Assembly (NCBI GenBank): GCA_938028705.1
Contig: CALIZI010000131.1
Span: forward strand, 1 to 45,832
Source of the DNA: an uncultured Saprospiraceae bacterium
Lineage (GTDB): Bacteria; Bacteroidota; Bacteroidia; Chitinophagales; Saprospiraceae
Direction: 5' to 3'
DNA: 45,832 nucleotides
The position numbers were made by a program, and so were the translations under genes. The notes beneath the pieces are model-generated. The model worked only from the letters and a program-made list of their open reading frames with translations, made no database searches and was not told the origin of the DNA. This document shows positions 1 through 45,332 of this stretch, one piece after another; position 1 is the first letter of the stretch, and every line of letters starts with the position of its first letter.

Positions 1-150
1 GTTTACTATAAATAGGTGCTTCGGTCTGAATTTGACCTAAAACTCGTCTGACATTTTGAAAATGTCTGACGAGTTTTAGGTCAAATTCGGGGCAGATTTC
101 CGATTTTAAGAATAAACATACTTTTATTTTTTTAATTTAACATTGTCAAG
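1..150. repeat. MITE-like element, copy 1 (left end outside window)
   Basis: The core is a 30-bp inverted repeat, arms 28-57 and 59-88, with a single T·T mismatch, centred on 58. The right flank is AT-rich and ends at 142-150 in ATTGTCAAG, the reverse complement of the CTTGACAAT end seen in the other two copies (12145-12320 and 45120-45332). Read in reverse, the roughly 35 bases inside this end resemble the left end of copy 2 closely. The left terminal repeat would lie before base 1. The element encodes no protein. Confidence 0.7.
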
Positions 151-242
151 TTATGTTAGATAATTAAAAATATACTTAAATAAACAATTTATATTATTTT
201 TTATAACCCGTTCTGATACCTTTTTTATTTCCAATAGCTTCA

Positions 243-250
243 ATATCTTC
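243..250 (+). promoter_or_regulatory. Possible -7 box for hisS
   Basis: TATCTTCG differs at one position from the Bacteroidota -7 consensus TAnnTTTG and lies 35 nt before the hisS ATG. No clear -33 TTTG is visible, so this is tentative. Confidence 0.3.
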
Positions 251-285
251 GCACCACAATTCATACATCCATAAATTATCATATT

Positions 286-1629
286 ATGAAACCAAGCATA
301 CCAAAAGGCACACGCGACTTCGGACCGATCCAAGTCAATCGCCGCAACTATATATTCAATACCCTGCGTCGCGTATTTGTCAAATACGGCTATCAGCCTA
401 TCGAAACGCCCGTTATGGAAAACCTCTCTACACTTACCGGAAAATACGGCGAGGAAGGAGACCAACTTTTATTCAAAGTCCTCAACTCCGGCGATTTTCT
501 GCGGAAGGTCAAGGACGAGGATTATCAGGCAGGTAACTACAAAAAAATGACCTTCCAAATTTCTGACAAAGGCTTACGTTACGACCTGACGATTCCATTC
601 GCACGCTACGTGGTGATGAATCAAAATGATATTACTTTTCCGTTTAAGCGTTATCAAATCCAACCCGTATGGCGCGGCGACAGACCACAAAAAGGACGTT
701 ATCGTGAATTTTATCAATGTGATGTGGATGTGGTCGGTAGCGAATCGCTCATCAACGAAGTAGAACTCACGCAGATATACGACGAGGGTTTTGCGGCACT
801 TGGTGTCAATGTTTTGATTAAAATTAACAATCGAAAAATTCTCACAGGTATTGCAGAAGCCGCAGGTATTCCCGACCAAATGATGAGCATGACAGTGGCA
901 ATTGATAAATTGGATAAAATCGGCATGGATGGTGTGAAAGACGAAATGCGTAGAAAGGAAATTGGAGAGGAAGCTATCAATACGATTGAAAAAATATTGA
1001 CAATCAATGATTTAGAAGAGTTGAAATCTTTTTTTGAAAATAGCGAAACAGGACGCAAAGGAATTGAGGAATTACAAACGGTTTTTAATTATTTAGAAAA
1101 AATTGACCTCACCAATGAAATTGTATTTGACATTACACTCGCTCGCGGATTGACTTATTATACCGGAACGATATATGAAGTCGCTGCAAAAGATGTAAAA
1201 ATCGGCAGCATCGGCGGCGGCGGCAGATACGACGACCTGACGGGAATGTTTGGTTTGAAAGGCGTATCGGGTGTAGGTGTGTCATTCGGTGCAGCGCGGA
1301 TTTATGATGTCATGGAAGAACTCGACATCTTTCCCGACAGCACCGCTGAAGGTACGCAATTGATTTTTGTGACCTTCGATGAAAAAGCACTTGATTATGC
1401 TTTTGATGCTTTACAGGCAGTACGCAAGGCAGGTATCAATGCTGAAATTTATCCCGAATCCGTCAAAATGAAGAAGCAGATGAAATACGCTAATTCACGA
1501 AAAATTCCTTATGTAGCCGTAGTCGGTGATAATGAAATGCAAGCCGGAGAAGTTGCGCTAAAAAATATGAAAACAGGCGAACAAGCAAATGTGAAAGTGG
1601 CAGATTTGGCGAGTAAAATCAAGCAATAG
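286..1629 (+). CDS. hisS: Histidyl-tRNA synthetase
   Basis: This cytoplasmic class II aminoacyl-tRNA synthetase charges tRNA-His with histidine using ATP. The 447 residues carry the class II signature motifs. Motif 1 includes GTRDFGP (8-14), motif 2 spans about 121-151 with the ATP-contacting arginine in a WRGDRPQKGRYREF context, and motif 3 is around GGGGRYDDL (310-318). The histidine-specific ARGLTYYTG lies at 286-294, and a C-terminal anticodon-binding domain runs from about 355. Length and domain order are normal for the family. ATG 286 sits in an AT-rich leader without a Shine-Dalgarno site, as is usual in Bacteroidota. The next gene pair follows after 56 nt but has its own promoter-like box and is unrelated in function. 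Confidence 0.97.
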   Translation: MKPSIPKGTRDFGPIQVNRRNYIFNTLRRVFVKYGYQPIETPVMENLSTLTGKYGEEGDQLLFKVLNSGDFLRKVKDEDYQAGNYKKMTFQISDKGLRYDLTIPFARYVVMNQNDITFPFKRYQIQPVWRGDRPQKGRYREFYQCDVDVVGSESLINEVELTQIYDEGFAALGVNVLIKINNRKILTGIAEAAGIPDQMMSMTVAIDKLDKIGMDGVKDEMRRKEIGEEAINTIEKILTINDLEELKSFFENSETGRKGIEELQTVFNYLEKIDLTNEIVFDITLARGLTYYTGTIYEVAAKDVKIGSIGGGGRYDDLTGMFGLKGVSGVGVSFGAARIYDVMEELDIFPDSTAEGTQLIFVTFDEKALDYAFDALQAVRKAGINAEIYPESVKMKKQMKYANSRKIPYVAVVGDNEMQAGEVALKNMKTGEQANVKVADLASKIKQ

Positions 1630-1643
1630 TCGTGGAAAAACCT

Positions 1644-1651
1644 TATTTTTG
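1644..1651 (+). promoter_or_regulatory. -7 box of toxin-antitoxin pair
   Basis: TATTTTTG matches TAnnTTTG exactly, 35 nt before the antitoxin ATG at 1686 and just after the hisS stop codon. This suggests the pair has its own promoter. No good -33 element is visible at the expected spacing. Confidence 0.45.
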
Positions 1652-1685
1652 GAGTGTATTTTATTCACAATAGAAACAAAAAGAT

Positions 1686-1922
1686 ATGAGTACAATAGAA
1701 ATGAAGGCTACCATTCTACGCTACATTAATGAAGATAACGAAGAGAAAATTGCTAAAATGTATGCTTCAGTGGTAGAAGATGATATTGTTGGTTACAATA
1801 TTGACGGAACACCGGTTTATGCGGAAGCATTTAAAAAAGAAGCGGAAGAAATTTTGCAGCGCATGGACGCAGGAGAATCTAAAACCATTCAAGAACTTAA
1901 AAAAGAAATGCTGCAATGGTAG
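1686..1922 (+). CDS. Putative type II antitoxin
   Basis: A 78-residue acidic, mostly helical protein immediately upstream of a RelE/ParE-type toxin gene. Its last 7 nt overlap the toxin start, the usual arrangement for translationally coupled antitoxin-toxin pairs. I do not recognise a named DNA-binding domain. The C-terminal part (about 44-78: AEAFKKEAEEILQRMD, then QELKKEMLQ) looks like an amphipathic helix that could wrap the toxin, and the N-terminal half could be the DNA-binding part. The assignment rests on size, position and overlap rather than on a clear family match. If right, it neutralises the toxin at 1916-2239 and probably represses the promoter at 1644. Confidence 0.6.
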   Translation: MSTIEMKATILRYINEDNEEKIAKMYASVVEDDIVGYNIDGTPVYAEAFKKEAEEILQRMDAGESKTIQELKKEMLQW

Positions 1923-2239
1923 AGTTGTACCAAGTTGATGTATCTTCAGAGACAGAAAAAGACATAAGGAAAATATTTGATTATTTACTTGATAGTTCAA
2001 GTGAAAACGTGGCATTGAAAGTTTCAATAGGAATTGCTGATACGATTGAAAAACTTGAAAAAATGCCCACAGGAAACCCAATTCAACATAATATCAGCAG
2101 TGAAAAACGTACTTTTCGTTTTATCAAAAAATGGAAATACAAAATCATTTATTATGTGGATGAAGATGCGAAAATAGTAAAAGTTGTTGCTGTAAGACAC
2201 TCAAGTCAACACCCTGACAAGTTGAAAGACTTATTATAG
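1916..2239 (+). CDS. RelE/ParE-family toxin
   Basis: A 107-residue protein with the ParE/RelE layout. Two helices (about 10-52, with SSETEKDIRKIFDYLL and IADTIEKLEKMP) are followed by beta strands ending in YKIIYYVDEDAKIVKVVAVRHSSQHP. The RHSSQHP ending is typical of ParE-like toxins. RelE members cut mRNA on the ribosome and ParE members poison DNA gyrase. The ParE-like C-terminus favours gyrase, but this is inference. The start overlaps the antitoxin end by 7 nt. The pair sits between hisS and a minus-strand gene, as expected for a small mobile addiction module in a spacer. Confidence 0.8.
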   Translation: MVELYQVDVSSETEKDIRKIFDYLLDSSSENVALKVSIGIADTIEKLEKMPTGNPIQHNISSEKRTFRFIKKWKYKIIYYVDEDAKIVKVVAVRHSSQHPDKLKDLL

Positions 2240-3282: not shown

Positions 3283-3425
3283 TTCGTAATTCGTAATTCG
3301 TATATTCGTGCGGTATAGTCGTCTGACGAATCCTTTTAGTGAATGTGAATATGTTGTCAGATAATCAGTGATATTTTATGACAACATTCGTCTGACGACT
3401 ATACCGCACACAACGAATTACGAAT
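3283..3425. repeat. Large inverted repeat with CGTCTGACGA core (H4)
   Basis: Outer arms are about 3283-3331 and 3386-3425. Both begin with an ATTCGTAATTCGT-like end and share a stretch containing GCGGTATAGTCGTC. Each arm carries CGTCTGACGA in the same orientation, giving a T·T mismatch in mid-stem. A second inner stem (about 3347-3359 with 3379-3389) extends the structure. It fills most of the spacer between two divergent genes, so their promoters must lie in or next to it. Confidence 0.8.
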
Positions 3426-9900: not shown

Positions 9901-11992
9901 CGGCGAAAAAATCACACTCCGCGACACTGAGCGCAGGCTCGTAGATACCATTCGATACGCCGACATTTTCCCTTGGAATGAGGAAGCTGACGGCTATGGT
10001 CCATCCTTGTGTTTGTCGGATATTTCACTGGATAATGGCATAGCTTCCAACTGGACAATTTGTCCTGTAAGGCATGACGCAAATTGCCTGTTAGGAAATA
10101 TTCAGCCCGACCTTGATATGTGGCTCAAAGCCTCCGAAGGCATAGTAGAAGGTGCCACGCCCAACGCTCCCAAAATATGGCAAGGGCAAAATGGTTCGGG
10201 AGTCAATGGCTCACAATTTACAAATACAAATCAAGCGCAATTTATTGATAATCAAATAAATGGAAACCCCGTTATGCGCTTTGATGGCACAGATGACTGG
10301 ATGAAATATAATGGCGCAGCAACACCTTTGTCGGATAATTCAACAGTGTTTGCGGTCATCACGCCACAGCCCGATAATGATGACGGATACTTTTTATCTA
10401 CCCATTTGGGTGGTAGCAATCGCCTTAAATTTGGGCATAATCCCAACGGACATATTATTTATGATGATGATGTAACTCCGCTGGACACACTCACTGATTA
10501 TCATGGAAAAAGTACGCTGGTTTCCTTTGATATTACTGCCTCACAAGTTGACGGTTTTATCAATGGAATAGCCGCGATTCCTTGGACAACAGATTTAAAT
10601 ATTTCTAATGCAAATCATGCTTCATTAGGACAAGAATTTGACGGTAGTGGCAGCGACAGTGAGACTTCCAACCACTGGAAAGGCGATATGGCTGAAATGA
10701 TGATTTTTAATAATGTTATTAATGCCAATACACGACATCAAATAGAGAGTTATTTTTCTGTAAAATATGGTATTACGATTCCCGTTTCTAATCATAATTA
10801 TTATAATCACGCCTCGCATCCTAATGATTTAGCAGGCATCGGGCGCGACCTTGTACAATGTTTGGAGCAACACAGTAGCCGAAGTATCAACCCCACGAGT
10901 ATCGTTACGATGACAACACCAACGATACTTCCAACGAATAGTTTTTTGGTCTGGGGCAATGACGGTGCAAGCACCAATGAAGTCAATACAGGCCTACCGT
11001 TCAGCATTCCCAATCGCCTTGAACGTACATGGCGAATCACCCAAACAGGCAATTCGGGCGCAGTGGATATTCAATTTGACCTAGCAGGTCTGGGCTTGGA
11101 TTTAAGCGACACTACCCACCTTAACTTATTGATAGACAGCGATGACGGAGATTTTGCTAATGCCCAAATTGTACCTGTCAGTAACATCAATGGTAATATA
11201 TTGACCTTTGAAGCGGTCAATTTTTCGGATGGCGATTGGTTCACTTTAGGTACACAATTTTTGGATTGTATTGACATTCAACTATACGCCTTCCTCGAAG
11301 GTCCTTACGATTCCACTACTACCGAAATGACCACAGCACTCGGCGCAACGCGCGGTTTATTGCCCGGACAAACGCCCGTCAGTAACCTCATTACTCCCAC
11401 TCCTCCCGGACAACCTTATAACGCTGCGCCTTGGAATTATACCGGAACGGAAGGTGCTACATGGACAGATGCAGACTATACAGGCGATGAGGTAGATTGG
11501 GTCTTGGTCTCCTTCAGAACGGCGATAGAAAAGAACACCCAAGTCGCACAAGGTGCAGCACTTCTTCATAAAGACGGTAGCCTACATTTTCCCGATAGAT
11601 GTGTACTCAACAGTGCGCTTGGTGTTACGAGTGCCTATATAATTATAGAACATCGCAACCACGTTGCTGCGATGTCTCCACAAGCTATTCCTATTAGTAA
11701 TGGTATATTTAGTTACGATTTTAGGTGGTCAAATAGCTATACGGCGAGTGGTACGGGCTTTGGTCAAAAACAAACCTCTACGGGCGAATGGCTCATGTTT
11801 ACAGGCGATAGCGACCAGTCTGATTTTCCGAGTTACGACATTCAAGGTACAGATAAAACCCTGTGGCTCAACGAAAACGGCATCTTCGACCAATACCGAA
11901 CATCCGATTTCAACTTAGATGGTGACATCAACGGACAAGACAAATCATTATGGTATGAGAATAATGGTATTTCCTCCAGAATACCAAAGTAG
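6944..11992 (+). CDS. Secreted CotH / lamin-tail multidomain protein
   Basis: A 1682-residue exported protein with a signal peptide at about 1-22. The domains in order are: lamin-tail domain (about 24-160, INELMAANNATIADPQGDYDDW); a second lamin-tail domain (about 175-320, INEIMPNNDTLADG); a chitobiase C-terminal-like beta domain (about 327-400, RYTTDGSEPT); a CotH-type kinase-like domain (about 405-800, with RWILFDTDFALG near 680); a third, shorter lamin-tail domain (about 903-1020); a LamG/concanavalin-like region (about 1057-1290); and a C-terminal pair of dockerin-like repeats (about 1621-1682, DFNLDGDINGQDKSLW). CotH is an atypical protein kinase of spore coats; bacterial secreted CotH proteins are poorly understood. 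It probably acts at the surface. It is followed by a strong terminator. Confidence 0.85.
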   Translation: MKFKIFISLIITLCLFENILYSQIYINELMAANNATIADPQGDYDDWIEIYNAGASPVNLGGYFITNDIANPDKWQIPTYNPTATTVPAGGYLLLWADEDITDGVTHLDRKLKSGGDFVALFATDALTLIDSIGFQAQTDDVSYGRETDGTSNFYKMTNPTPNATNIFNPLPGTLTPYTNLYINEIMPNNDTLADGYGDFDDWLEIYNGNANTVDIGGLYLTDDLDDLLKWQITTNHQIGASGHTVIWADNEPEQGDLHTTFKLSSTGDFIALIQKIGNQITILDSLTFGEFRRNISYGRKTDGSNTHSQFVQFSPGNTNNGKKKLVDEVKFSIKGGLHSASQNVTFSCTTPNVTIRYTTDGSEPTSSSPSGTSVNVSSTRNIRAKAFKSGWQESFTTSESYLINVSHHLPVVNIATNPDNLWDNQIGIHVIGTNGKVANCRSDPRNYNQDWERPATVQMYETDGTLAFNIDAGISISGGCSRNNAQKSINIATKKRYGTEEIDYQLFPTRNQDEFRRFKLRNAGNDWNLTSMRDAVVQALVKDEVDIETQEFRPSVVYLNGEYWGIMSIRDVFSEHYLNYKFPDIDKDSIDLHFLHLYGDVNQYDVEVKEGHHQAFLDLYNYIDDNSMSNASNYEYVKSLMDINEYLNYQIVQIHVANTDWPSNNTRVWRDQRQGGKFRWILFDTDFALGRQANGSNSRTANPPSMNSLYQTVRTDQGGWPNDPASTEMLRKLLQNNEFKHEFIQRFATQINLLFTSSRTATIVDDYKATMQPEMQDHLNKWNLNGGSLSTWRGRVDYLKTWLADRPPYMRQHIQSHFGLNGTYNLTIDFDANSGGYVLLNSNEYPAPYNYSGIYFDNIPIEITAVAHEGYVFSHWQQTGDTNAKTSYTSSSNATLTPVFRRAPMISEIHYHPANGGDYEFIKITNPENGTIELTNFQFTNGIEHTFGNLTLQANEEIILAKKASLHSSQPLRVFQWTSGSLDNDGEKITLRDTERRLVDTIRYADIFPWNEEADGYGPSLCLSDISLDNGIASNWTICPVRHDANCLLGNIQPDLDMWLKASEGIVEGATPNAPKIWQGQNGSGVNGSQFTNTNQAQFIDNQINGNPVMRFDGTDDWMKYNGAATPLSDNSTVFAVITPQPDNDDGYFLSTHLGGSNRLKFGHNPNGHIIYDDDVTPLDTLTDYHGKSTLVSFDITASQVDGFINGIAAIPWTTDLNISNANHASLGQEFDGSGSDSETSNHWKGDMAEMMIFNNVINANTRHQIESYFSVKYGITIPVSNHNYYNHASHPNDLAGIGRDLVQCLEQHSSRSINPTSIVTMTTPTILPTNSFLVWGNDGASTNEVNTGLPFSIPNRLERTWRITQTGNSGAVDIQFDLAGLGLDLSDTTHLNLLIDSDDGDFANAQIVPVSNINGNILTFEAVNFSDGDWFTLGTQFLDCIDIQLYAFLEGPYDSTTTEMTTALGATRGLLPGQTPVSNLITPTPPGQPYNAAPWNYTGTEGATWTDADYTGDEVDWVLVSFRTAIEKNTQVAQGAALLHKDGSLHFPDRCVLNSALGVTSAYIIIEHRNHVAAMSPQAIPISNGIFSYDFRWSNSYTASGTGFGQKQTSTGEWLMFTGDSDQSDFPSYDIQGTDKTLWLNENGIFDQYRTSDFNLDGDINGQDKSLWYENNGISSRIPK

Positions 11993-12016
11993 CTTAGATT
12001 TACATCTAAGATATGG

Positions 12017-12042
12017 AAGCCACCGAAAGGTGGCTTTTTTTT
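12017..12042 (+). terminator. Intrinsic terminator of the CotH gene
   Basis: Stem AAGCCACC / GGTGGCTT closed by a GAAA tetraloop, followed by a run of T. It ends the transcript 50 nt after the stop codon. Confidence 0.9.
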
Positions 12043-12144
12043 GTAGTACGGGCTGCTTTAGCTGCCCTCATTGTATAAAAGTCAAAAAACGGAATATTTT
12101 ATTTTACAAATATTTTAATTAATTATAAATTTTTTTTAAATTAT

Positions 12145-12320
12145 CTTGACAATATTAAATTTAAAAAAATAAGAATGCGTTGTTGTTTGAAATAGTAAAT
12201 CTGCGCTGAATTTGACCTAAAACTTGTCAGACATTTTGAAAATGTCTGACAAGTTTTAGGTCAAATTCAGAACGAAGTGCTTTATTTATATTTAATAAAA
12301 AATTAATATAATATTGTTTT
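12145..12320. repeat. MITE-like element, copy 2
   Basis: The left end CTTGACAAT is at 12145-12153 and a weaker right end (ATTGTTTTA) is near 12312-12320. The core is a perfect inverted repeat with 32-bp arms at 12206-12237 and 12239-12270. Compared with copy 1, the pair C-G in CTCGTC/GACGAG has become T-A in CTTGTC/GACAAG, a compensatory change. Here the mid-stem mismatch seen in copies 1 and 3 is also repaired (GTCAGAC opposite GTCTGAC). Confidence 0.75.
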
Positions 12321-12452
12321 ATCAAATAATTATAAAATTAAATTAATTGAATATATTTATTAATTTTAATAAAAATAAAATACTTGATAATCAATTACTT
12401 ACAATTTAAAACCGAATTTCCCAGTTACCGAATTTCCAAAATGTCCAAGTCC
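12318..12452. repeat. Spacer repeat R, copy R1
   Basis: About 135 bp that match 13411-13543 closely by eye, in the same orientation. The match includes ATCAAATAATTATAAAATTA, then TGATAATCAATTACTTAC, TTTAAAACCGAA and AAAATGTCCAA. R1 and R2 flank the NUDIX gene. Confidence 0.8.
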
Positions 12453-12524
12453 AGCTATCTAAGGCAGCTAAAGCAGCCTGTACTGTGACGAAAAAACCTT
12501 ATCTTACGCCTCAAAACAAGCAAC

Positions 12525-13094
12525 ATGAAGATAGACATCAGCAAACAAGATATACTATTCGATAATTTTTTTAAAATAGAAGCGGCACGACTTCGCTACG
12601 AAAAATTTAGTGGCGATATGTCGGACGAAGTGACCTACTTTAGTCTTGAACGCAAGGATGCTACGGCGGGTATCGTCTATAATACAGACACCAAAAAAGT
12701 GATTTTAATCAAACAATTCCGGTATCCGACCCACAAAAAACGCGATGCGTGGATGATAGAAATCGTAGCGGGTATGATAGACGAAGGCGAAAGTGCCGAA
12801 GCTGCCATCCGGCGGGAAATTTTGGAAGAAATCGGATATAAAGTGAATAAAATCGAGGAAATATCCGTTATATTTACTTCGCCGGGTATCTCCTCCGAGC
12901 GTATATTTTTATTCTATGCGGAAGTAGATACGGCAACAAAAATTGAAACCGGCGGTGGACTTTTGAACGAACACGAAGACATCCAAACACTTGAATATAC
13001 CCTTGATGAATTGAATAAAGCCTTGAAAAACAAGGAAATACAAGATGCAAAAACCATGATAGCTTGTCATTACCTGTTGGATAAATATAATTGA
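12525..13094 (+). CDS. NUDIX hydrolase, ADP-sugar pyrophosphatase type
   Basis: A 189-residue cytoplasmic hydrolase. The NUDIX box GX5EX7REUXEEXGU is intact at about 83-105 (GMIDEGESAEAAIRREILEE, then IG). Strands on either side (VILIKQFRYPTHKKRDAWMIEIVAG) are typical of the NudF/NudK branch, which cleaves ADP-ribose or GDP-mannose to a sugar phosphate and a nucleoside monophosphate with a divalent metal. GDP-mannose is of interest because a GDP-fucose synthase lies in the same window, but they are 27 kb apart and the substrate is not proven. The gene stands alone between two copies of repeat R, and no operon partner is visible. Confidence 0.9.
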   Translation: MKIDISKQDILFDNFFKIEAARLRYEKFSGDMSDEVTYFSLERKDATAGIVYNTDTKKVILIKQFRYPTHKKRDAWMIEIVAGMIDEGESAEAAIRREILEEIGYKVNKIEEISVIFTSPGISSERIFLFYAEVDTATKIETGGGLLNEHEDIQTLEYTLDELNKALKNKEIQDAKTMIACHYLLDKYN

Positions 13095-13096
13095 AC

Positions 13097-13345
13097 TTTG
13101 GACAAAATGGGAATTAGGGAATTAAGAAATTCGGGTGGTGTTCGAGAAAAATAGGATGCGCCTAAAAGCGATATACTCGTCTGACGAATCCCTTTGTTAA
13201 AATAGGATATTTAGGCAATCAAACGGTGGTTTACTATAAAAATATTCGTCTGACGAGTGTACCCTATTTTAATCGAACACCACCGAAATTTGTTTTAAAA
13301 CCGTAACTCATTGATAATTCAATTGAATGAATTTTATTAATAAAA
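13097..13345. repeat. Inverted copy of repeat R, interrupted by palindrome H5
   Basis: 13098-13133 (GACAAAATGGGAATTAGGGA) and 13288-13345 (GTTTTAAAACCGTAACTCAT and on) are together similar to the reverse complement of repeat R2. The two parts are separated by the class H5 inverted repeat at 13132-13287, as if H5 had inserted into an existing R copy. Confidence 0.55.
13132..13287. repeat. Inverted repeat with CGTCTGACGA core (H5)
   Basis: The outer arms share GGTGGTGTTCGA (13135-13146) and TCGAACACCACC (13273-13284). Both inner arms carry ACTCGTCTGACGA-type sequence (about 13176-13189 and 13243-13258), with the same T·T mismatch as H4. The loop region has no coding potential. Confidence 0.7.
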
Positions 13346-13389
13346 TAAAGCATCTGGACTTTAGATATTGGGGAATTAGGAAATTTGGT

Positions 13390-13409
13390 ATCCCGATAGT
13401 TATTGGGAT
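13390..13409. repeat. Short palindrome, CCGATA family
   Basis: ATCCCGATAGTTATTGGGAT is a 20-bp palindrome, with one G·T pair in RNA form, of the same family as 6650-6680 and 13912-13931. Confidence 0.55.
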
Positions 13410-13410
13410 T

Positions 13411-13543
13411 TTTATCAAATAATTATAAAATTAAATTAATTAAATATTTTTTAATTTTAATAAAAATAAAATAACTGATAATCAATTACTTACGGTTTAA
13501 AACCGAAGATCCCAATTTCCTAATTCCCAAAATGTCCAAAATC
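13411..13543. repeat. Spacer repeat R, copy R2
   Basis: The second direct copy of the sequence at 12318-12452. It ends with CCCAAAATGTCCAAAAT, where R1 has TTCCAAAATGTCCAAG. Confidence 0.8.
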
Positions 13544-13579
13544 TAATTCTAAACATGCCCTTATTTTTCTATGAAAAGG

Positions 13580-13790
13580 ACGAACTAACGAGGTCTTTTT
13601 TTATTTTAGAAATGCTTTTGCTTGGCTTCCCCGTAGCGTAGGCTTCCAGCCTGCGTTGCGTTTGAGCGATACGATATCGGTGCATTACAGTTTTCAGGTA
13701 TCTATGTCCGTGCTTTACTCCCTCGCTAAATATGTGGACACGCAGAATATAGCTCTTGGCGTACAGTAGAGCATTTCCCATAAAACAATT
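13580..13790. repeat. Dispersed spacer repeat, copy B
   Basis: It aligns with 6548-6790. On the minus strand it holds an open frame of 70 codons (13569-13781) containing RRLEAYATGKPSKSISKIKK, but the frame is broken in copy A. I do not call a gene here. Confidence 0.6.
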
Positions 13791-13883
13791 CAGCCATCTA
13801 ACAAATCGACAAGTTCATCTAAATCATAAAAGTTTTGACACTTTTGGAATTTGATTTTAAAAATCAAAACAAAATTTAAATAC

Positions 13884-14012
13884 TCCGTTTGCTAAACTTC
13901 AAAAAGTTTGGTCTCCGATAGCTATCGGAGAAGCAATGTGCTGATATTTAGCCAGTTACAAACTTTAGTGCCTTGCCTACGTTTAGCAAACTTGAAAAGT
14001 TTACCAAACGGG
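13884..14012. repeat. Inverted repeat before the glycosyltransferase gene
   Basis: CCGTTTGCTAAACTTC at 13884 onward is mirrored by GTTTACCAAACGG near 13998-14010, and TAGCAAACTTGAAAAGTTT near 13983-14001 matches the left arm in reverse. A CCGATA-family palindrome (13912-13931) lies inside. The region has no convincing gene. Confidence 0.5.
13912..13931. repeat. Short palindrome, CCGATA family
   Basis: TCTCCGATAGCTATCGGAGA is a perfect 20-bp palindrome. Its outer bases differ from those at 6650 and 13390 but remain paired. Confidence 0.65.
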
Positions 14013-14097
14013 TTTATTGTATTTTGTGTAAAATTAATATCGTATAAAGTGTCAACTACACGGATGAATTTATCAATAAATCCAATAATTTTAAATC

Positions 14098-15165
14098 ATC
14101 AAACCGATAAAAAAAATCCTTATTGCGCCCTTGAATTGGGGACTTGGACACGCTACACGCTGTATGCCTGTCATTGACGAATGTCGGCGGCAGGGTGCGG
14201 AGGTCTATTTGGCTTCCGATGGGCGGGCATTACGACTATTAGAAAAAGAATATCCTAAGCTCACCACCCTCGAATTACCTGCTTACAATATTCGTTATGG
14301 CACAGGCAATATGACATGGAATATCGCTCCACAAATGCCAAAAATCTTGTGGGCAATGCAACAAGAAAAAAAAGCAGTGGACAAAATCATTCGCCAATAC
14401 AATATTGACGGTCTGATTTCCGACAATCGCTTTGGTTGTTACAGTTCGCGTATTCCATCCGTATTTCTCACGCATCAAACCAACCTCAAAGTACCTGCTT
14501 TGCTCGGCATCGGCACTTTTGCCAAATGGAATAATCGCCGTCTTATTCGGCGTTATGACCAATGTTGGATACCTGATTTGGAAGGCGAACCGAATCTTTC
14601 GGGCAGTCTTTCGCATGGTTATGCACTGCCAAATATGCGTTACGTAGGTATCCTCTCGCGTATGCGCCCTTTGGAGGTCAAAAAACGCTACGATATTATC
14701 GCTGTCCTCTCCGGTCCTGAACCGCAGCGGACTTATTTTGAAGAAAAAATTATCGAACAATTATCGACGCTTCCTTATCGCACACTCATCGTCAAAGGAA
14801 AAACAGATAGCGAAATCCACAGCCAAAATAACAATATTGAAACCCTAGCTTACCTCACCAAGACCGACCTCAATGAAGCTATCCTTGCTTCCGGTGTCGT
14901 CATTAGCCGTTCAGGGTACAGCACTTTAATGGACCTTGCCGCACTTAGCAAACGACAAGTCATCCTCGTTCCCACACCGGGACAAACCGAACAGGAGTAT
15001 CTCGCTGACCTTTTGCATCAAAAAAATATTTTTTTACAACAAACTCAAAATCAACTCGATATCCAACTCGCTATGACACAATTGGATAATTATACAGGTT
15101 TGGATATGGATACGGATGAACAGCAATTGCAAAAAGCGGTAAGAGATTTTTTGAAAGGAAATTGA
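14098..15165 (+). CDS. MurG-like glycosyltransferase (apparent ATC start)
   Basis: About 355 residues related to family 28 / GT-B glycosyltransferases that resemble MurG. The N-terminal loop is KILIAPLNWGLGHATRC, and the donor-binding half contains ISRSGYSTLMDLAALSK and PTPGQTEQEYLAD, near residues 270-310 of the extended frame. Such proteins transfer a sugar from a nucleotide-sugar to a glycan or lipid acceptor; the substrates are unknown. The frame opens after TAA at 14092 and has no ATG or GTG in the N-terminal region. The first standard alternative, TTG 14131, would cut into the conserved loop. ATC 14098 (then AAA CCG ATA) gives a normal N-terminus. Alternatively, ATG 14064 joins this frame if the A8 run at 14109-14116 is one base too long. 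It is convergent with the sulfotransferase gene. Confidence 0.8.
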   Translation: MKPIKKILIAPLNWGLGHATRCMPVIDECRRQGAEVYLASDGRALRLLEKEYPKLTTLELPAYNIRYGTGNMTWNIAPQMPKILWAMQQEKKAVDKIIRQYNIDGLISDNRFGCYSSRIPSVFLTHQTNLKVPALLGIGTFAKWNNRRLIRRYDQCWIPDLEGEPNLSGSLSHGYALPNMRYVGILSRMRPLEVKKRYDIIAVLSGPEPQRTYFEEKIIEQLSTLPYRTLIVKGKTDSEIHSQNNNIETLAYLTKTDLNEAILASGVVISRSGYSTLMDLAALSKRQVILVPTPGQTEQEYLADLLHQKNIFLQQTQNQLDIQLAMTQLDNYTGLDMDTDEQQLQKAVRDFLKGN

Positions 15166-15176
15166 GCCTTTAGATG

Positions 15177-15208
15177 TCAGACACTTTCAAAGTTCTGATA
15201 TTTTTTTA
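15177..15208 (+). terminator. Terminator of the glycosyltransferase gene
   Basis: TCAGA and ACTTT (with a bulged C) pair with AAAGT and TCTGA, and the stem is followed by ATATTTTTTTATA. It ends at the stop codon of the convergent sulfotransferase gene. The stem resembles the inner part of the MITE-like hairpins, perhaps by chance. Confidence 0.65.
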
Positions 15209-15961
15209 TACATCAAGCCGTTCTATCAGGCGATATTCTTCATCCAATATTTCGCGTAATCGTGCTAATTGTTCGTCATTAATATTTAAAGTATAATCAT
15301 ATCTTTTTTTGTAAGAAAGTTTTAATTCGAGATTAAATCTTACAGATAAATCTGCCATGCCTTCATTTATATTTTCTGTAAAAAAATAAGTCGAACAAGT
15401 GCGTATTTTCTCCTCGGCTTCTTCTATATTATAACTTTTTGAAAACATGTATAATTGATTCATTAAATGTTGTTTAGGAATATTTTTTAAAAAATCATCG
15501 AATGAATTGCCCAACCATTTCCCTTCCGTAAGCATACAAGGGTGCGGCACTTGATTATCACGGAAATAGCACAACATTTTGTAATGTGATAAGACACGCT
15601 GTGCAGGGTCGCGCAGACAGGTAAATGTGAATACATGTTTCGGAAGTTGCAACTCGTAAGCGGGTGTATGTGCAAAGCCATAAAAGTATTTTCCACCTTG
15701 AATCAAGCGTGCATTCCAACCTACAAATACTTTATCATTGGCAATAACCCGTTGATTTTTTTTATGGGCTATCTGTTGGTAAAAAGTATCTAAATCCGCT
15801 ACACCCGAATGAGCAAGAAAGGCATAGTGGATGCTTGTGCCACCTGTTTTTCGGATGTGGTAATTGTAAATTGGTGGAGTGTTTTGTTGTTGAAACAAGT
15901 GCTTTGCTTGTCGGTTCTCTTTAAAATAAGAAAAAGGTTTATAGAAAAAATCGTTCATCAA
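15206..15961 (-). CDS. Sulfotransferase family protein
   Basis: A 251-residue protein of the P-loop-like sulfotransferase fold, close to the Sulfotransfer_2 group that uses PAPS to sulfate carbohydrates. The 5'-phosphosulfate loop RKTGGTSI is at 37-44. A 3'-phosphate-binding segment CLRDPAQRVLSHYK follows at 115-128, with Arg117 and Ser125 in the expected places. There is no signal peptide, so it is probably cytoplasmic. The acceptor is unknown; a cell-surface polysaccharide is a reasonable guess given the glycosyltransferase gene facing it. The gene begins 14 nt from the direct repeat that bounds the restriction-modification cassette, so it may be just outside that unit. Confidence 0.85.
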   Translation of the reverse strand: MMNDFFYKPFSYFKENRQAKHLFQQQNTPPIYNYHIRKTGGTSIHYAFLAHSGVADLDTFYQQIAHKKNQRVIANDKVFVGWNARLIQGGKYFYGFAHTPAYELQLPKHVFTFTCLRDPAQRVLSHYKMLCYFRDNQVPHPCMLTEGKWLGNSFDDFLKNIPKQHLMNQLYMFSKSYNIEEAEEKIRTCSTYFFTENINEGMADLSVRFNLELKLSYKKRYDYTLNINDEQLARLREILDEEYRLIERLDV

Positions 15962-15974
15962 AGTAAATAATGAA

Positions 15975-15997
15975 AATTGTCGGGCTTTTTCAAGTTG
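15975..15997. repeat. Left boundary direct repeat of defence cassette
   Basis: A 23-bp sequence ending GGGCTTTTTCAAGTT that recurs at 19650-19672 with one mismatch (22/23). The two copies enclose four defence genes and fall in the spacers on either side of them. Confidence 0.7.
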
Positions 15998-16046
15998 AGG
16001 TATTAAACCGGCTTTTTCAAGTTGAGGTATTAAACCGGCTTTTTCT
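15984..16046. repeat. 27-bp tandem repeat, 2.3 copies
   Basis: A unit starting GGCTTTTTCAAGTTGAGG and ending TTAAACC occurs at 15984-16010 and 16011-16037, with nine more matching bases to 16046. The last copy provides the stop codon and final residues (KKKPV) of the methylase gene. Confidence 0.9.
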
Positions 16047-17649
16047 TTCCTCTCGACATTCTTCTATTGGATAATTTTTGCCAAATATTGTCAGCTAATT
16101 TAATTTCTTTATTAGAAAAACCGAAACTGTCTTTGAGCATTTTTTGGTTAGTGTCTATTAATATCGTATCAATTGACTCTTTATTTCTCATTCTTTCATC
16201 TATCTCACAAATGTAATCCTGATGTTTTTCATGGTAAGGTATCAATATCTTTTCAGCTTCATTAGGCATCAATTCCAAAACTCCGCCACCATAACTCCGC
16301 CCGGATATTTCGGCAAAAGCAAAAGATAGTGAATTATAAAAACTTGCACATAAAGCATTGATATTCGTATCTTTTTTCAACTTGACGCGGTGCATGGTAT
16401 CCGTAGTATATGCCTCCGCTTCATTGACGATAAGTTTTGGAAAACGATTATTTCTTCTGATAAATAATGCGTCAGAAACCCATGTAGAGGGTACAATTTG
16501 CCACTCATCACGGATGCGGCATTTGTAGCCTTTGTGAATGTCAAGGCTTTCGCCATAGCGTATGTATGAAAGGGCATCGGGATTGCTCTGCATGTCGGCG
16601 ATACGGGAGAAATGCAGAAAATTGGCTCTTGCGCCGAGTTGTTTGTTTTCCTGCCAATCTTCGGGAGTAAAACGTAGGCTTTTGACCTGTACACTGCGCC
16701 CGACCAAAGGCTTGGTATAATCTTGTAAATTGTATTGATTTATAACGGATTGCGGCACGGAAAAGAACTTGTTCGCGCCCGTTGTCATCCCAACTTCTAC
16801 GGCTGCAAGGCTGCCGATAGTGGGTATATTTTTTTCTTTATTGAGGTGTTCAAGAAAGTCAATTTCGAGTTGGTCTAAAAAATAAAATGTCCATTTATTG
16901 GATTGAAAGTCTATTTGTTTTTCGGTGCTTTTCAGGGCAGTCATATCCACCGATTTCAGGTCTTCAATATCATTTAATTCGATGTGTTCGATGTGGTGTT
17001 TTCCTGAATTATTTTTTTCGCATAATAATAAAACTACTTCTTGCTGAATGTCGGGAAAAACTAATGTTTTGAAAGAAATAATATTAATTTTATTAAAAAA
17101 ACGAGCGAGAAACTGGCGAAGCGGTTTGGCATAAGATACTTGCAAAATTTCGGCGGGCAATACAAATCCTATTTTTCCTTTTTCTTTTAATAATAACGAA
17201 GAACCCACCACAAAGGAAACCCAAGCATTGGTCAGTTTTGAATAAGAAAGACGGGCGCGATTAAATATTTTTTCGGCTTCTATTTGTTGTATTCTATCAA
17301 AATATTGGTAACGAATATAGGGCGGATTACCGATTACAAGGTCATATTTTTTGTCGGTTTGATTGCAGAAAGTATGAAAATCTTGTTGGTAAATTTGGGT
17401 ATTATCCAAATCGATATTTGTAGCTTTTTGTGCTTCAACTTCATCTAATTCAATGGCTGTAATTGATTTATAATGAATGTTTTGTGATTTGATACTATCT
17501 AAGAATACACCATCGCCACAACTCGGCTCCAATATCTCATAATCACGCACACCGTTTACCGCCCATTTTAAGATAAAATCAGCAATCGGGGCAGGTGTGT
17601 AAAAGCCGCCACGTAATTTTTGAGCTGTTGCGTTTTCAATTAATTGCAT
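16030..17649 (-). CDS. Gamma-class N6-adenine DNA methyltransferase
   Basis: A 539-residue methylase of the TaqI/Eco57I type. SAM-binding motif I is ILEPSCGDGVFL (39-50) and the catalytic motif IV is IGNPPY (106-111). The N-terminal RGGFYTPAPIADFILKW (13-29) is the typical motif X start. The C-terminal half (about 265-510) should be the target-recognition domain. It methylates adenine in a specific DNA site, protecting host DNA from a partner nuclease. The PLD-type nuclease gene lies 72 nt upstream in the same direction, so together they look like a type II-like restriction-modification pair. The C-terminal residues are encoded in a tandem repeat, which may have changed the original end. Confidence 0.92.
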   Translation of the reverse strand: MQLIENATAQKLRGGFYTPAPIADFILKWAVNGVRDYEILEPSCGDGVFLDSIKSQNIHYKSITAIELDEVEAQKATNIDLDNTQIYQQDFHTFCNQTDKKYDLVIGNPPYIRYQYFDRIQQIEAEKIFNRARLSYSKLTNAWVSFVVGSSLLLKEKGKIGFVLPAEILQVSYAKPLRQFLARFFNKINIISFKTLVFPDIQQEVVLLLCEKNNSGKHHIEHIELNDIEDLKSVDMTALKSTEKQIDFQSNKWTFYFLDQLEIDFLEHLNKEKNIPTIGSLAAVEVGMTTGANKFFSVPQSVINQYNLQDYTKPLVGRSVQVKSLRFTPEDWQENKQLGARANFLHFSRIADMQSNPDALSYIRYGESLDIHKGYKCRIRDEWQIVPSTWVSDALFIRRNNRFPKLIVNEAEAYTTDTMHRVKLKKDTNINALCASFYNSLSFAFAEISGRSYGGGVLELMPNEAEKILIPYHEKHQDYICEIDERMRNKESIDTILIDTNQKMLKDSFGFSNKEIKLADNIWQKLSNRRMSRGKKKPV

Positions 17650-17721
17650 ATTTCGCGCCCTATTTCTTTATAAAACATATTGTTTCCTGAAGGTACGTCT
17701 TTTGTTTTTGTTATGCTAATT

Positions 17722-18894
17722 TTATTCGATTTTTAGTAAAAATAAATTTGTCTCGCCTTCAATTTGGAACAAGGACAAGGTGTTTCCTTTAATATTTTGC
17801 TCACGTATCGCGTCTATCGCATCGCCCCAATGAAGTGTAGTCGGTACGTTATTTTGTCCGGCAACTCTATCGGAGTCGTGGCTGATTCTTAATGTAAAAA
17901 TACCCTTTGACGCGCCGTTAATCTCAATTTGAAAATCCGCATGAGTTTCTTCTAAAGGTGAGTTTTGTTCTCTCATTTTTTGCGTCCAATCCAAATGACC
18001 AAACACCTCGTTTCTGAAATATGTTTTAATATTAATCAAGGCATCATTTGCCTTAAATCGTGCTTGCGCGAGACGTAATACCCCCGTAGGATTGGTCTTG
18101 CCCGACACTTGCTGTGCATCCGAACTTGGTAGGTTGTTTTTTTGCCAAACTAAGGTCTGTTTTCCTTTTGGCAATATTGGTTTTTGTCCTGTTTTTTGTG
18201 CTTTTTTCTTTTGAGATTTGTTTTTCCTTTTCGGAATACTGACGGCAGGAAACATCTTTTTGATTTCGGAAAGCAAGGCTTGATTTTGAGTAGGTTTATT
18301 TGATGCCTGACTTACTTCGCGTCTTTCTTTTTCCTCTGGAATGACCTCTGCATCAACGAGTTGTTCGATTAACTCTCTTGTTAATTGTTGTACATTCGGA
18401 GAGGTTTTGTCCAGTAAGAAACGATAATGATTTTTGATTTGATTGAGCAAACTGACACCTTGTTTTTCGGTCATTTCAAAATCAATAACCAATGATGCTT
18501 CCATATTTTGAAATAAGCCTTGTAAGGTCAAATTCGACGAACCAATAATAATTCTGCCTTGTTTTTCTCCTTCAAAAATATAAATTTTAGGGTGAAAAAT
18601 GATATGAGAAACAGTGTGATAAACGTAAGAATTGACTTCTGATTCGAGCAACAAACTCAAAGCCTCACGCGAGGTTACTTTTTGGTCTATTCCAATAAAA
18701 AAAATAATTTCTGCATAATTATTTTTCGCACTTTTAATGTGGTCGTATATGCTCTTTATGCCTCCTTCGCTTGCAAATGCTACGATAGCCAAGAATTTAT
18801 TAAAAGCCTTATCTCCAAACGAATCAATGATAAGTTGACCAACAGATTCATCAGAAATATCTGCAAAACCTTGTCCGAGAAAGCGTATGTTCAT
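17722..18894 (-). CDS. PLD-family nuclease, probable restriction enzyme
   Basis: A 390-residue protein with one phospholipase-D-type catalytic motif: HPKIYIF at 101-107 (His101, Lys103) and GSSN at 118-121. The usual Asp of HxKx4D appears to be replaced by Glu108 or lost. Families with this layout include the metal-independent restriction enzymes related to BfiI and NgoFVII, which work as dimers so that two motifs form one site. A Lys-rich linker (about 215-265) follows. The C-terminal region (about 285-390, FTLRISHDSDRVAGQNN) looks like the DNA-recognition domain of NgoFVII-type enzymes. The gene starts 7 nt after the PIN toxin gene and is followed by the methylase gene, supporting a restriction role. 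Confidence 0.78.
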   Translation of the reverse strand: MNIRFLGQGFADISDESVGQLIIDSFGDKAFNKFLAIVAFASEGGIKSIYDHIKSAKNNYAEIIFFIGIDQKVTSREALSLLLESEVNSYVYHTVSHIIFHPKIYIFEGEKQGRIIIGSSNLTLQGLFQNMEASLVIDFEMTEKQGVSLLNQIKNHYRFLLDKTSPNVQQLTRELIEQLVDAEVIPEEKERREVSQASNKPTQNQALLSEIKKMFPAVSIPKRKNKSQKKKAQKTGQKPILPKGKQTLVWQKNNLPSSDAQQVSGKTNPTGVLRLAQARFKANDALINIKTYFRNEVFGHLDWTQKMREQNSPLEETHADFQIEINGASKGIFTLRISHDSDRVAGQNNVPTTLHWGDAIDAIREQNIKGNTLSLFQIEGETNLFLLKIE

Positions 18895-42855: not shown

Positions 42856-43622
42856 TACCGCACCAAGCCATACTGCTCAATGATGCGAATAAGTTTTTCG
42901 GCATAGAGTGGGTCTTTTGAGTATCCGGCAAGTTCCAAGCCTTTTGCCCAGCGTTGGTAATCGGTTTTGTCCAGATTGGTGAGGGCTTTGAATGTGCCTT
43001 CGGAGAGGTGCTTGCTGTGGTTGCGGAAAGAGAACCATGCCGACTCGTAGCTACGCATACAAGTACCATCGTAAGTCGCGGTTTTTTCTGTCCACCCATT
43101 GTCGCATTCTAAATTAAAATAATTATTTGTCTGATTGGCGATAATACTCGTACCTGCCTGACTCGCCAACAAAGACTGTGCAAGTGTAATCGAAGCCGGA
43201 ATATTAAATTTCTCCATTTCAGTTACCGCCACCTTTTCAAATCGCTTCACATAAGCCGCAATAGTCACTTCCGGTGCAATGACAAGTTCGGCATCGGGCG
43301 CAAGTGTGGGCGCACTATCGCCACTAAATACAGAGAGCAAGCCCGTCTTGGAAATAATACTTTCTTGTGCAACAGGTGGCACTTCTTCCGTAAATTTTTC
43401 CCGTTTTTTAATCGACTCTTTGGGCGTATGTAGCAATGGCTGAACGGCTTTCGGTGCTTCCTGCAACATCGGCTGCTCCTCTTGTGCGGGCTTACCCATA
43501 CGGAAATTGACATTCAGATTTTTACCCGCAAATGCAGTCAGCACGATAACAACTATCGCAAGTTTGAACCAGTGGTTTTGCAGAAAAGTAAGGGTGGTGG
43601 CTTGGTATGCTCTCATTTTCAT
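42855..43622 (-). CDS. Glucosaminidase-like protein lacking the catalytic Glu
   Basis: A 255-residue membrane-anchored protein. One transmembrane helix lies at about 19-33, a proline-rich linker at about 40-120, and a glucosaminidase (FlgJ/LytG-type) domain at about 124-255 (YVKRFEKVAVTEMEKFNIPA and onward). Active family members have a Glu in an LAQ-x-x-LES-x-x-G context. Here the aligned part reads LAQSLLASQAG, so Ala153 stands where the Glu is expected. The substrate-groove segment NQTNNYFNLEC is present, as are YESAWFSFRNHS and the C-terminal helices. If the alignment is right, the domain may bind peptidoglycan without cutting it. Confidence 0.8.
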   Translation of the reverse strand: MKMRAYQATTLTFLQNHWFKLAIVVIVLTAFAGKNLNVNFRMGKPAQEEQPMLQEAPKAVQPLLHTPKESIKKREKFTEEVPPVAQESIISKTGLLSVFSGDSAPTLAPDAELVIAPEVTIAAYVKRFEKVAVTEMEKFNIPASITLAQSLLASQAGTSIIANQTNNYFNLECDNGWTEKTATYDGTCMRSYESAWFSFRNHSKHLSEGTFKALTNLDKTDYQRWAKGLELAGYSKDPLYAEKLIRIIEQYGLVR

Positions 43623-43903
43623 GACATATATATTGATGTTTGATGAACAATTTTTTTGTTGAGATTGTGAGTGTTTAGACTTCTCACAACTTATTTATAT
43701 TATAATCAGGGAATGTACCCCACATTAATTTTTTTGGAATTTGGAATTTGTGTTTTGGAATTTTTAAAAAACATGTTGATGTTTATTAAATGCAAATTTA
43801 AAACAAAATGTTTTAAATTTCAATTATTTTGATGAAAATTATTTTTTAAATTTAAAATTGAAGTTGAGTTTGAGGTTGAAGTTGATTTGTATATATTTGA
43901 GGA
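43623..43903. other. Spacer with heptad-like tract and promoter
   Basis: Contains TTTGGAATTTGGAATTTGTG-type repeats (about 43732-43762) and a degenerate tract built of GAAGTTGAGTTTGAGGTTGA words (43859-43885), ending in the -7 box at 43892-43899. Confidence 0.45.
43892..43899 (+). promoter_or_regulatory. -7 box of the EamA gene
   Basis: TATATTTG matches TAnnTTTG and ends only 4 nt before the ATG at 43904. If used, the transcript would have almost no leader. Confidence 0.5.
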
Positions 43904-44800
43904 ATGAATAAAGTCTTATTTGCTCACCTCGCGCTCGCTGCCGTACAAATCATTTATGCAGCAAGTTATACGATTGCCAAAATCGCGATGCCACAATATA
44001 TACAGCCTTTTGGCTTTATTTTGATTCGCGTATTTACGGGTTGCGTATTGTTTTGGTTGGCACATCTGATTTTTATTCGTGAAAAAATCAAGCGGCAGGA
44101 TATTGGCTATCTGATGATTTGCGGAATATTTGGCGCAGGAGTCAACCAACTGACCTTCTTTAAAGGCTTGAGCCTGACCACACCGATTGATGCTTCGCTT
44201 ATCGTGACCACCTGCCCAATTATGGTGCTGCCGATAGCCGCCGTATTGATTGGCGAGCGCATTACGTGGCGCAGGTTGGTGGGTATTTTACTGGGTGCGG
44301 CGGGTGCTGTTTTTTTGATTTTATATGGTAAAAATGTCGTGGACAATCCGGGAGAAAATCGCGCACTCGGCAATATTTATTTATTCCTTAATGCCTCGTT
44401 TTACGCCACCTATTTGGTCTTGGTCAAATCGCTGCTCAAAAAATATCATCCACTCACTATCGTAAAATGGGTCTTTACCTTCGGATTGATTTTAGTCTTT
44501 CCTTTTGGCATTCAGGAACTTATGGTGGTCGAGTGGGCTACGTTTACGCAAGGCGTATGGTGGTCGGTTTTTTATATCTTATTTTTCGTTACTTTTATCG
44601 CTTTTTTATTCAATATTCTGGCATTGCGTGTGGTGAGTCCTGCAGCGGCAAGTGCTTATATTTATTCGCAACCTTTTCTTGCCACTATCATCGCTATGCT
44701 TGCAGGTAAAGACATGATTTCGGTGCCGCAAGTATTGGCTTGTTTATTGATTTTTGCGGGCTTGTATTTGGTGAGTAGTCGGCAGGAAAATGTAGCGTAA
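43904..44800 (+). CDS. EamA-family drug/metabolite transporter
   Basis: A 298-residue inner-membrane protein with about ten hydrophobic helices in two halves. Each half has the EamA fold (VQIIYAASYTIAKIAMPQYI at the start of the first; LFLNASFYATYLVLVKSLLK at the start of the second). The family exports or exchanges small metabolites, amino acids or nucleotide sugars. The substrate cannot be deduced. ATG 43904 fits the first helix well and no alternative start is needed. The gene stands alone and is followed by an imperfect hairpin at about 44801-44861 and then a kilobase without genes. Confidence 0.9.
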   Translation: MNKVLFAHLALAAVQIIYAASYTIAKIAMPQYIQPFGFILIRVFTGCVLFWLAHLIFIREKIKRQDIGYLMICGIFGAGVNQLTFFKGLSLTTPIDASLIVTTCPIMVLPIAAVLIGERITWRRLVGILLGAAGAVFLILYGKNVVDNPGENRALGNIYLFLNASFYATYLVLVKSLLKKYHPLTIVKWVFTFGLILVFPFGIQELMVVEWATFTQGVWWSVFYILFFVTFIAFLFNILALRVVSPAAASAYIYSQPFLATIIAMLAGKDMISVPQVLACLLIFAGLYLVSSRQENVA

Positions 44801-44861
44801 TGCCTCCGGCTTGCATCGCGCACTATCTGACTAAACTAATTCAGCGCAAGCTGGAGACATT
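44801..44861. repeat. Imperfect inverted repeat after the EamA gene
   Basis: AATGCCTCCGGCTTGC (from about 44801) and GCAAGCTGGAGACATT (to about 44861) pair with two mismatches around a 29-nt loop. Six A/T bases follow, but there is no clear T-run. Confidence 0.5.
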
Positions 44862-44940
44862 AAAAATACCCATGTTTTTCATTATTTTAAATAATAATAT
44901 TTACAAATAACTTATTTTCAATATAAAAATATCATAAAAT

Positions 44941-45094
44941 CAATGTGTTCGCCAAATTGGGTATTCAGTATTTTTTGATTATTAATAAATTTAAATTGCG
45001 ATTTATATTTAATTAAAAATAAATTATTTACAAAAATAAAAATAAATAAACTATTCATATTAGATTTGTAATTTTTAATTTGGTGAACACATTG
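44941..45094. repeat. AT-rich segment with 18-bp terminal inverted repeats
   Basis: CAATGTGTTCGCCAAATT (44941-44958) is mirrored at 45077-45094 with one mismatch. The 154-bp unit between and including the ends is AT-rich and has no open frame, the layout of a small non-autonomous element. Confidence 0.65.
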
Positions 45095-45119
45095 AAAATA
45101 ATTTCAATTAATAATACAA

Positions 45120-45332
45120 CTTGACAATTTCATATTTTAAAAATAAAAATGTGTTTATATTTAATATGGGATGTTTTTTCCGAATTTGGGCTAAAACTCG
45201 TCTGACATTTAAACTTTGCTGGGAAAATATGACATCATCGGTGAATTTTGAAAATGTCTGACGAGTTTTAGCCCAAATTCAAGAGCAAAATGCCCACTAT
45301 ATTAAAAAAAAATCGAACATGATATTGTCAAG
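45120..45332. repeat. MITE-like element, copy 3
   Basis: The ends CTTGACAAT (45120-45128) and ATTGTCAAG (45324-45332) are exact complements. The core arms are 45182-45210 and 45252-45280 with one T·T mismatch, and a 41-nt loop replaces the tight loop of copies 1 and 2. Relative to copy 1, the arm sequence GACC/GGTC has become GGGC/GCCC: two pairs changed on both sides. Confidence 0.75.

Follow-up and report, generated by a model that had tools for sequence, protein, structure and literature searches.

What kind of mobile element spreads a long hairpin through a bacterial genome, and do the ends of the element and the hairpin between them belong together? The question is raised by the window studied here, that is, the whole stretch of DNA that was analysed: contig CALIZI010000131.1 of an uncultured Saprospiraceae bacterium with a length of 45,832 nucleotides (contig C131 of genome G000; G000:C131:1-45832; the genome comprises 8.0 Mb in 483 contigs). 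An earlier sequence-only reading had pointed to three repeats with common ends and an inner hairpin containing the word TAAAACTYGTC, and both the word occurrences and BLAST comparisons between the copies confirmed them. The family consists of non-autonomous transposons with terminal inverted repeats, so-called miniature inverted-repeat transposable elements (MITEs), and the long hairpin between their ends is a separable module. In our judgement, the elements are probably best understood as MITE chassis of the DDE type carrying, as a cargo that is exchanged between chassis, a separable hairpin that resembles repetitive extragenic palindromes (REPs) or Rickettsia palindromic elements (RPEs).

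Family size and architecture

Across the genome, the word TAAAACTYGTC matched 351 times on one strand and 369 times on the other (reversed-word control: 15 and 16), and its extension by WGAC yielded 338 and 357 (reversed control: 0 and 0). With one match on either strand from every hairpin, the genome contains about 350 hairpins. Thus, the proposed three-copy family is real, but its copy number had been put far too low; the sampled copies also show ends that are conserved beyond the hairpin.

Sampled contigs with a total of 1,436,845 bases (18% of the genome) contained 85 paired hairpins, one of which (window position 13172) is a member of another family. As the contigs were partly picked for holding copies, the sample gives no density estimate. 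The core is 41 nt long in 27 hairpins, 77-80 nt in 51 and of other lengths in seven; in the window, copies 1 and 2 belong to the short-loop class A (core of 41 nt) and copy 3 to the long-loop class B (core of 79 nt). The elements are built in the order X arm, hairpin, Y arm. Among the copies listed, the arms start with CTTGACAATGTCATG (class B), CTTGACAATGTTAAATT (class A) or variants of these, and their inner ends, which precede TAAAACTYGTCWGACATTT, are mostly GAATTTGGGC or GAATTTGACC. Copies with two ends mostly measure 165-215 bp, within the range of about 70-300 bp that is usual for MITEs, and one reaches 459 bp through an enlarged loop. Of 61 lone arms, most were judged to match merely by chance, two errors being allowed. 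Assembly breaks lie within family copies at window position 1 and at contig ends such as those of L048, L107, L111, L112, L116 and L149, and the resulting gaps hamper both the copy number estimate and the search for a partner. Another contig (L120; G000:C61) carries, at 11791-18581, eight diverged hairpins of the group together with other palindromic repeats; CTTGAC ends cannot be recognised in most of the eight.

Terminal repeats, target duplication and empty sites

The terminal sequence CTTGACAATRTYA was recognised at both ends of 38 of the 85 sampled copies when up to two mismatches were allowed; the other 47 (contig ends, decay, other ends) were left out of this count. The 4-bp flanks directly outside CTTGAC are identical in 27 of the 38 two-ended copies, which answers the proposal to look for target duplications, and at eight other offsets such identity was found in 0-2 of 38. 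The target site reads NTAN, with T at position -3 in 69 and A at position -2 in 72 of 76 ends. Moreover, flanks joined without the element match paralogous empty sites. Among the matches listed for these sites, very many came via other AT-rich repeats, and four elements passed the filter. Three alignments spanning the junction were checked base by base, among them L098, which falls outside the filter: two contain one clean target each (CTAA and TTAA), and the third, with TAAA inside a run of A, is less exact.

The ends, the NTAN duplication and the empty sites together define the outer part as a MITE by structure. Terminal repeats with a short target duplication are traits of DDE transposition and are unexpected for transposition by Y1 enzymes. 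We infer that the ends are moved in trans by a transposase of the DDE type, which would act on the CTTGACAATRTYA termini. That the repeats are non-autonomous had been supposed from the three copies, and the supposition is upheld by the many further copies, the ends kept outside the hairpin, the duplication and the paralogous empty sites.

Exchange of the hairpin between elements

The same ends enclose other contents in relatives. In the congener G003, they surround an unrelated hairpin, and three copies with both ends each have identical 4-bp flanks; five further ends lie in stretches that are truncated. In a member of another genus, G090 (L267 1501-1549, L270 and L271), the same ends were found by reading, again with identical 4-bp flanks in three of three copies. 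Two of these contain a third kind of hairpin, and the third copy is 46 bp long in total, barely beyond its two terminal repeats. In G000 itself, two single ends (L153 and L133) lead into other inverted repeats.

The reverse situation also occurs. Hairpins with TAAAACTYGTC are present in GGGTGCGATTCGTTTTTGTACCC-ended elements, six of which are two-ended, with an exact 9-bp duplication in three of the six. Among the copies listed, one side of these elements still holds a remnant resembling CTTGACGAT, and they therefore look like a capture of the first, CTTGAC-ended element. Furthermore, paired GTCWGAC sites were detected in GGCTACCCGTCTAA-ended elements (12 pairs; 8-bp duplication exact in two, one without the core) and in CCCAAGTTGAATATGTAG-ended elements (8 pairs; 4-bp YTAR duplication exact in five). 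Paired YGTCWGACR sites that are 8-60 bp apart number 459 in G000, 149 in G005, 144 in G002, five in G003, two in G004 and zero in G001. Since the same ends occur with other hairpins and the same hairpin with other ends, the hairpin must be regarded as a separate module.

The sequence TAAAACTYGTCWGAC was found in three of 60 genomes, all of the same genus (three of its six), and the end word TANCTTGACAATGTNA in ten of 199 genomes of the family, with paired ends on inspection in G000, G003 and G090 alone. A slightly different end word gave single or few ends in G002, G005 and G001, of which the G001 end reads as coding sequence. Among the at least 12 matches listed from a scan of the genome collection, ten are from Saprospiraceae; the second arm is absent from the two others (L078 and L081), which were rejected.

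On the earlier suggestion that the element is active or recent, the evidence is mixed: the closest class-B arms among the copies compared are about 96% alike, yet the three two-ended G003 copies are near-identical by eye.

Pairing of the stem and its central mispair

Of the 85 hairpins, 80 could be scored, five being too close to a contig end. Along the 29 positions of the stem (-10 to +18), Watson-Crick pairing holds in 73-80 of the 80 hairpins everywhere but at the centre of GTCWGAC, which is paired in 25 and mispaired in 55; nine rows with at least two mismatches, several of them out of register or from another family, were retained. The paired letters covary, position -3 being G in 50, A in 20, T in three and C in two hairpins and position +7 being C in 55, T in 19 and G in three. 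In class B, the centre is mispaired in 43 hairpins, paired in seven and unscored in one, and an enlarged class-B set gave 44 mispaired centres among the 54 with both bases scored. In class A (cores of up to 45 nt), 17 centres are mispaired, 13 paired and two unscored; with 17 of 30 scored, class A taken alone is thus not above chance.

The combinations T.T, A.A and A.T occur at the centre in G000, and congeners add T.C and G.A. Among the matches listed, the forward rows are mispaired in 13 of 13 cases in G003 (T.C or G.A), in 11 of the 14 listed of 34 in G005, in 11 of 14 (of 61) in G002 and in eight of 14 (of 111) in G000, which amounts to 43 of 55 for the genus. Outside the genus, one of 18 is mispaired when all rows among the matches listed are counted. 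Cores of the GGCTACCC type are mispaired in 11 of 11 cases and cores of the CCCAAGTTG type are paired in three of three, so that the mispair, given also the varied counts, is frequent and not universal. A mid-stem mispair is tolerated or favoured while the rest of the stem stays paired.

Orientation of the loop

The X and Y arms allowed us to orient 55 class-B copies, 43 from the sample and 12 from 15 extra loci; the arm test excluded two of these loci, and another yielded no additional copy. The loop points one way in 32 copies and the other way in 23. Where the arms of two copies are at least 96% alike, its orientation is the same in seven of 15 pairs; at 94-96%, it is the same in 26 of 51 pairs. 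Thus, the loop has been flipped repeatedly, either inside the element or via exchange between copies. Exchange, mispair and loop flips bear out the remark in the sequence-only reading that so large a hairpin at the centre is out of the ordinary for a simple MITE.

A hairpin acting as a passive passenger, playing no part in transposition and lacking a dedicated mover, could have acquired its pairing, its double changes and its loop flips from template switching during replication. We consider this account possible, if rather improbable. Loop flips and symmetric stem changes (-3 to -1, +7) are indeed expected from strand switching between arms or copies. The same process should erase the mispair, yet it is kept in the majority of all scored hairpins and of the enlarged class-B set, and congeners have the further mispairs T.C and G.A; in class A alone, the mispair is at chance level. 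Template switching alone fails to explain the mispair kept in class B. As a cargo of the MITE, the hairpin may be exposed as a single strand or a cruciform, by analogy with what is supposed for REP and RPE palindromes, which would permit loop flips; it may also bring the two ends of the element together.

The two loop orientations, together with near-palindromic paired sites common to several element types, would also fit an invertible switch, in which a site-specific recombinase acting at the GTCWGAC pairs flips the loop and alters the expression of a neighbour. We hold such a switch to be very unlikely. No link is evident between the W letters of GTCWGAC and the way in which the loop points, which speaks against one fixed crossover point, and class A has almost no loop that could be flipped.

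Related palindromes and Y1 transposase genes

The 25-bp core with any centre base is present, among the matches listed, in nine of 148 relatives, namely G000, G002, G003, G005, four other genera of the family and G037, which belongs to another family than the window genome. It lies in frame in the lpxB gene of G003 (L208 425-502) and of G005 (L199 400-477), and G002 has a near copy. The identity of the G003 open reading frame (ORF) as lpxB follows from NCBIfam TIGR00215 (225.9 bits; cut-off 190.25). The translated palindrome reads S-S-D-(T/I)-S-K-(V/M)-S-D-D. The lpxB orthologues of G001 and G004 are without the palindrome, and lpxB of G000 has a different insert. The lpxB loci compared also include L255, L256, L257 and L258. 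This lipid-A gene is a hot spot for palindromes, with the double palindrome (SSDTSKVSDD...) in frame in three congeners.

In G037, a RAYT-like ORF (L220 1135-1767; NF047646, E 2.4e-13, 50.2 bits, under the cut-off of 80) contains a GTCAGAC...GTCTGAC palindrome. In the genus, paired GTCNGAC sites were found in the fetched flanks of none of 17 Y1 loci (L169, L170, L277-L291), several of which are weak Y1 matches. Fifteen of the 17 possess inverted repeats or palindromes of their own, the set differing from gene to gene, and G005 (69% complete) is rich in GTCNGAC hairpins and has no Y1 match. A dedicated Y1 or RAYT mover is therefore not supported.

These observations bear on two further explanations. 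The whole unit might be REP/REPIN-like, with outer ends that are incidental, and a Y1 (RAYT) transposase might copy it via single-stranded DNA. The mid-stem mispair, which E. coli REPs need according to the accessible text of PMC8266576, and the palindrome inside the RAYT-like ORF of G037 would fit such a mechanism. It is nevertheless extremely improbable, because terminal repeats and a 4-bp target duplication are unexpected of it and both the Y1 loci of the genus and the hairpin-rich G005 fail to show the required association. Alternatively, the GTCNGAC hairpin itself might be the mobile palindrome, handled as single-stranded DNA by an enzyme unlinked to the Y1 genes seen here. The mispair would then be required, the loop would flip on processing, and the palindrome would ride in unrelated MITE chassis and land in frame in the lipid-A gene. 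We regard this version as unlikely.

Genomic placement

The genes next to the copy are known in 61 cases, with 37 copies between tandem, 21 between divergent and three between convergent ORFs; random intergenic points are expected to fall at 57%, 35% and 7.5%, respectively. Among the 85 copies, two lie mostly inside an ORF and 22 at contig edges or in unclassified positions, all ORF calls being mechanical. Neither an enrichment at gene ends nor a bias in gene orientation was found among the 61 placed copies, and this placement speaks against terminators and favours near-neutral insertion between genes.

The sequence-only reading had offered a repeated RNA structure as an alternative, and a strong stem with changes on both sides would suit a functional RNA or a transcription terminator. 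However, Rfam at gathering scores revealed no family on the elements, the sole match in the window being a tRNA, and no terminator-like site (stem followed by a T-run) was detected at the three window hairpins; each terminator scan gave one site elsewhere, one of these being a 5-bp stem within an arm of copy 3. Moreover, unrelated sequence replaces the hairpin in G003 and G090. Taken together with the lack of a gene-end bias, these results make an RNA or terminator function hardly credible.

Search for an autonomous partner

A transposase with matching ends, for which a search had been proposed, was not found in the stretches covered. Several candidates were rejected. The two members of an end pair without core at L137 are 3633 bp apart and are poor ends without CTTGAC, so that they were read as chance. 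Next to an insertion sequence at L164, a hairpin contains the shared word TTGACAATG, but the insertion sequence itself has different ends. For single ends in G200, G106, G210, G086, G033, G175 and G235, the stretches fetched held no true partner, and these ends were likewise read as chance.

The following points weigh against a DDE-type MITE with an exchangeable, flipping hairpin. No autonomous partner was detected in the sampled 1.44 of 8.0 Mb when unpaired or widely spaced ends were sought, and a partner with matching ends is absent from six DDE_Tnp_1 loci and from two Y1 loci. One or both recognised ends are lacking in 47 of the 85 sampled hairpins, and an exact target duplication flanks none of the three window copies. 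The elements with a 9-bp duplication may go back to a single capture event that was amplified later. As to the loop, nearest neighbours agree in orientation in 33 of 55 cases against about 51% expected from the proportions, and 24 of 28 pairs in the 93-95% bin of the smaller 43-copy set are alike. The transposase partner may have been lost, may lie elsewhere in the unsampled genome or may have fallen into an assembly gap.

The copies in the window

The window contains four occurrences of CTTGACAAT, two direct (12145 and 45120) and two as the complement (142 and 45324). When both strands are counted, TAAAACTYGTC occurs six times, always within the three repeats. Copies 1 and 2 are 83% identical over 149 bp (BLAST, E 8e-39), copies 3 and 1 are 78% identical over 99 bp, and copies 3 and 2 are 73-77% identical over 86-92 bp. 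No ORF of at least 90 amino acids lies inside the copies.

Copy 1 (1..150, plus strand, class A) has its X arm on the left and its Y arm on the right, with the complement of the end repeat at 142-150. Its left end is missing, as had been noticed, because the contig itself begins there. Its hairpin at 28..88 (GAATTTGACC-TAAAACTCGTC...), which was located by a self-match of 28-88 and by folding, has one T.T mispair in the stem. Copy 2 (12145..12326, minus strand, class A) has its Y arm on the left, where the end is intact (12145-12153), and its X arm on the right, where the end is decayed and the boundary approximate; by reading of the sequence, the right limit is near 12326 and not at 12320, the position first proposed. 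All stem positions of its hairpin (12206..12270; a TAAAACTTGTC variant) are paired. Copy 3 (45120..45332, minus strand, class B; 213 bp) is the sole complete element among the three, with ends at 45120-45128 and 45324-45332 and the flanks ACAA and ATAA. Its hairpin (45182..45280; GAATTTGGGC-TAAAACTCGTC...) has a long loop and one T.T mispair.

Copy 2 is flanked by the inverted repeats GTACGGGCTGCTTTAGCTGCC and GGCAGCTAAAGCAGCCTGTAC at 12046-12066 and 12463-12483 and is thus nested in a larger repeat element. Two more inverted-repeat elements with paired GTCTGACGAA sites lie at 3308-3409 and 13134-13284, with the other outer arms GTGCGGTATAGTC and GGTGGTGTTCGA, respectively; the GGTGGTGTTCGA-armed type is found again at the beginning of contigs in L092, L137 and L138.

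Comparison with known systems

In the literature searched, in which subscription papers were largely missing, we found neither this family nor MITEs whose mispaired hairpins can be exchanged, and novelty is thus unproven. A possible resemblance of the hairpin to integron attC sites, which have R and L boxes with extrahelical bases, and to an operator of the GntR/FadR type (yGTC-N-GACr) may also be noted. As far as the accessible parts of PMC3733652 and PMC10969869 go, the elements resemble bacterial MITEs such as Correia/NEMIS, RUP, Nezha and ERIC in size, terminal repeats, target duplication, copy number, intergenic placement and foldable strands or transcripts. In contrast to these, the centre is here a long hairpin that is exchanged between different ends, keeps its mispair and flips its loop alone; for Correia elements, inversion of the whole element is cited in the text available of PMC10969869. 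The transposon family described here is one whose ends and middle evolve separately. Its natural series of T.T, A.A and A.T at one position and both loop orientations in hundreds of copies, with T.C and G.A in congeners, bears on the question whether the hairpins of MITEs are passengers or working parts.

With REPs and their TnpAREP/RAYT transposases, as covered by the accessible text of PMC8266576 and PMC3733652, the hairpins have in common that they are palindromic repeats with a mid-stem mispair (E. coli type only). According to the same portions, some REP dimers occur regularly within larger palindromes, and for E. coli REPs the unpaired state and not the sequence is reported to matter for TnpAREP (PMC8266576), which serves here as an analogy. 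Unlike REPs, the hairpins have no unpaired GTAG/CGTC tag, as their CGTC lies within the paired stem (positions +7 to +10); none of the 17 Y1 loci of the genus is flanked by the palindromes in the stretches fetched, and they are carried in terminal-repeat transposons. They resemble RPEs, as far as these are treated in the available part of PMC3733652, in forming in-frame palindromes in a protein gene, here lpxB, that are absent from some orthologues. However, phylum and sequence are different, and related palindromes are here carried by MITEs as well. The same part of PMC3733652 records CGTC-type palindromes without a dedicated transposase, and riding in MITEs is a testable route by which palindromes of this type could spread.

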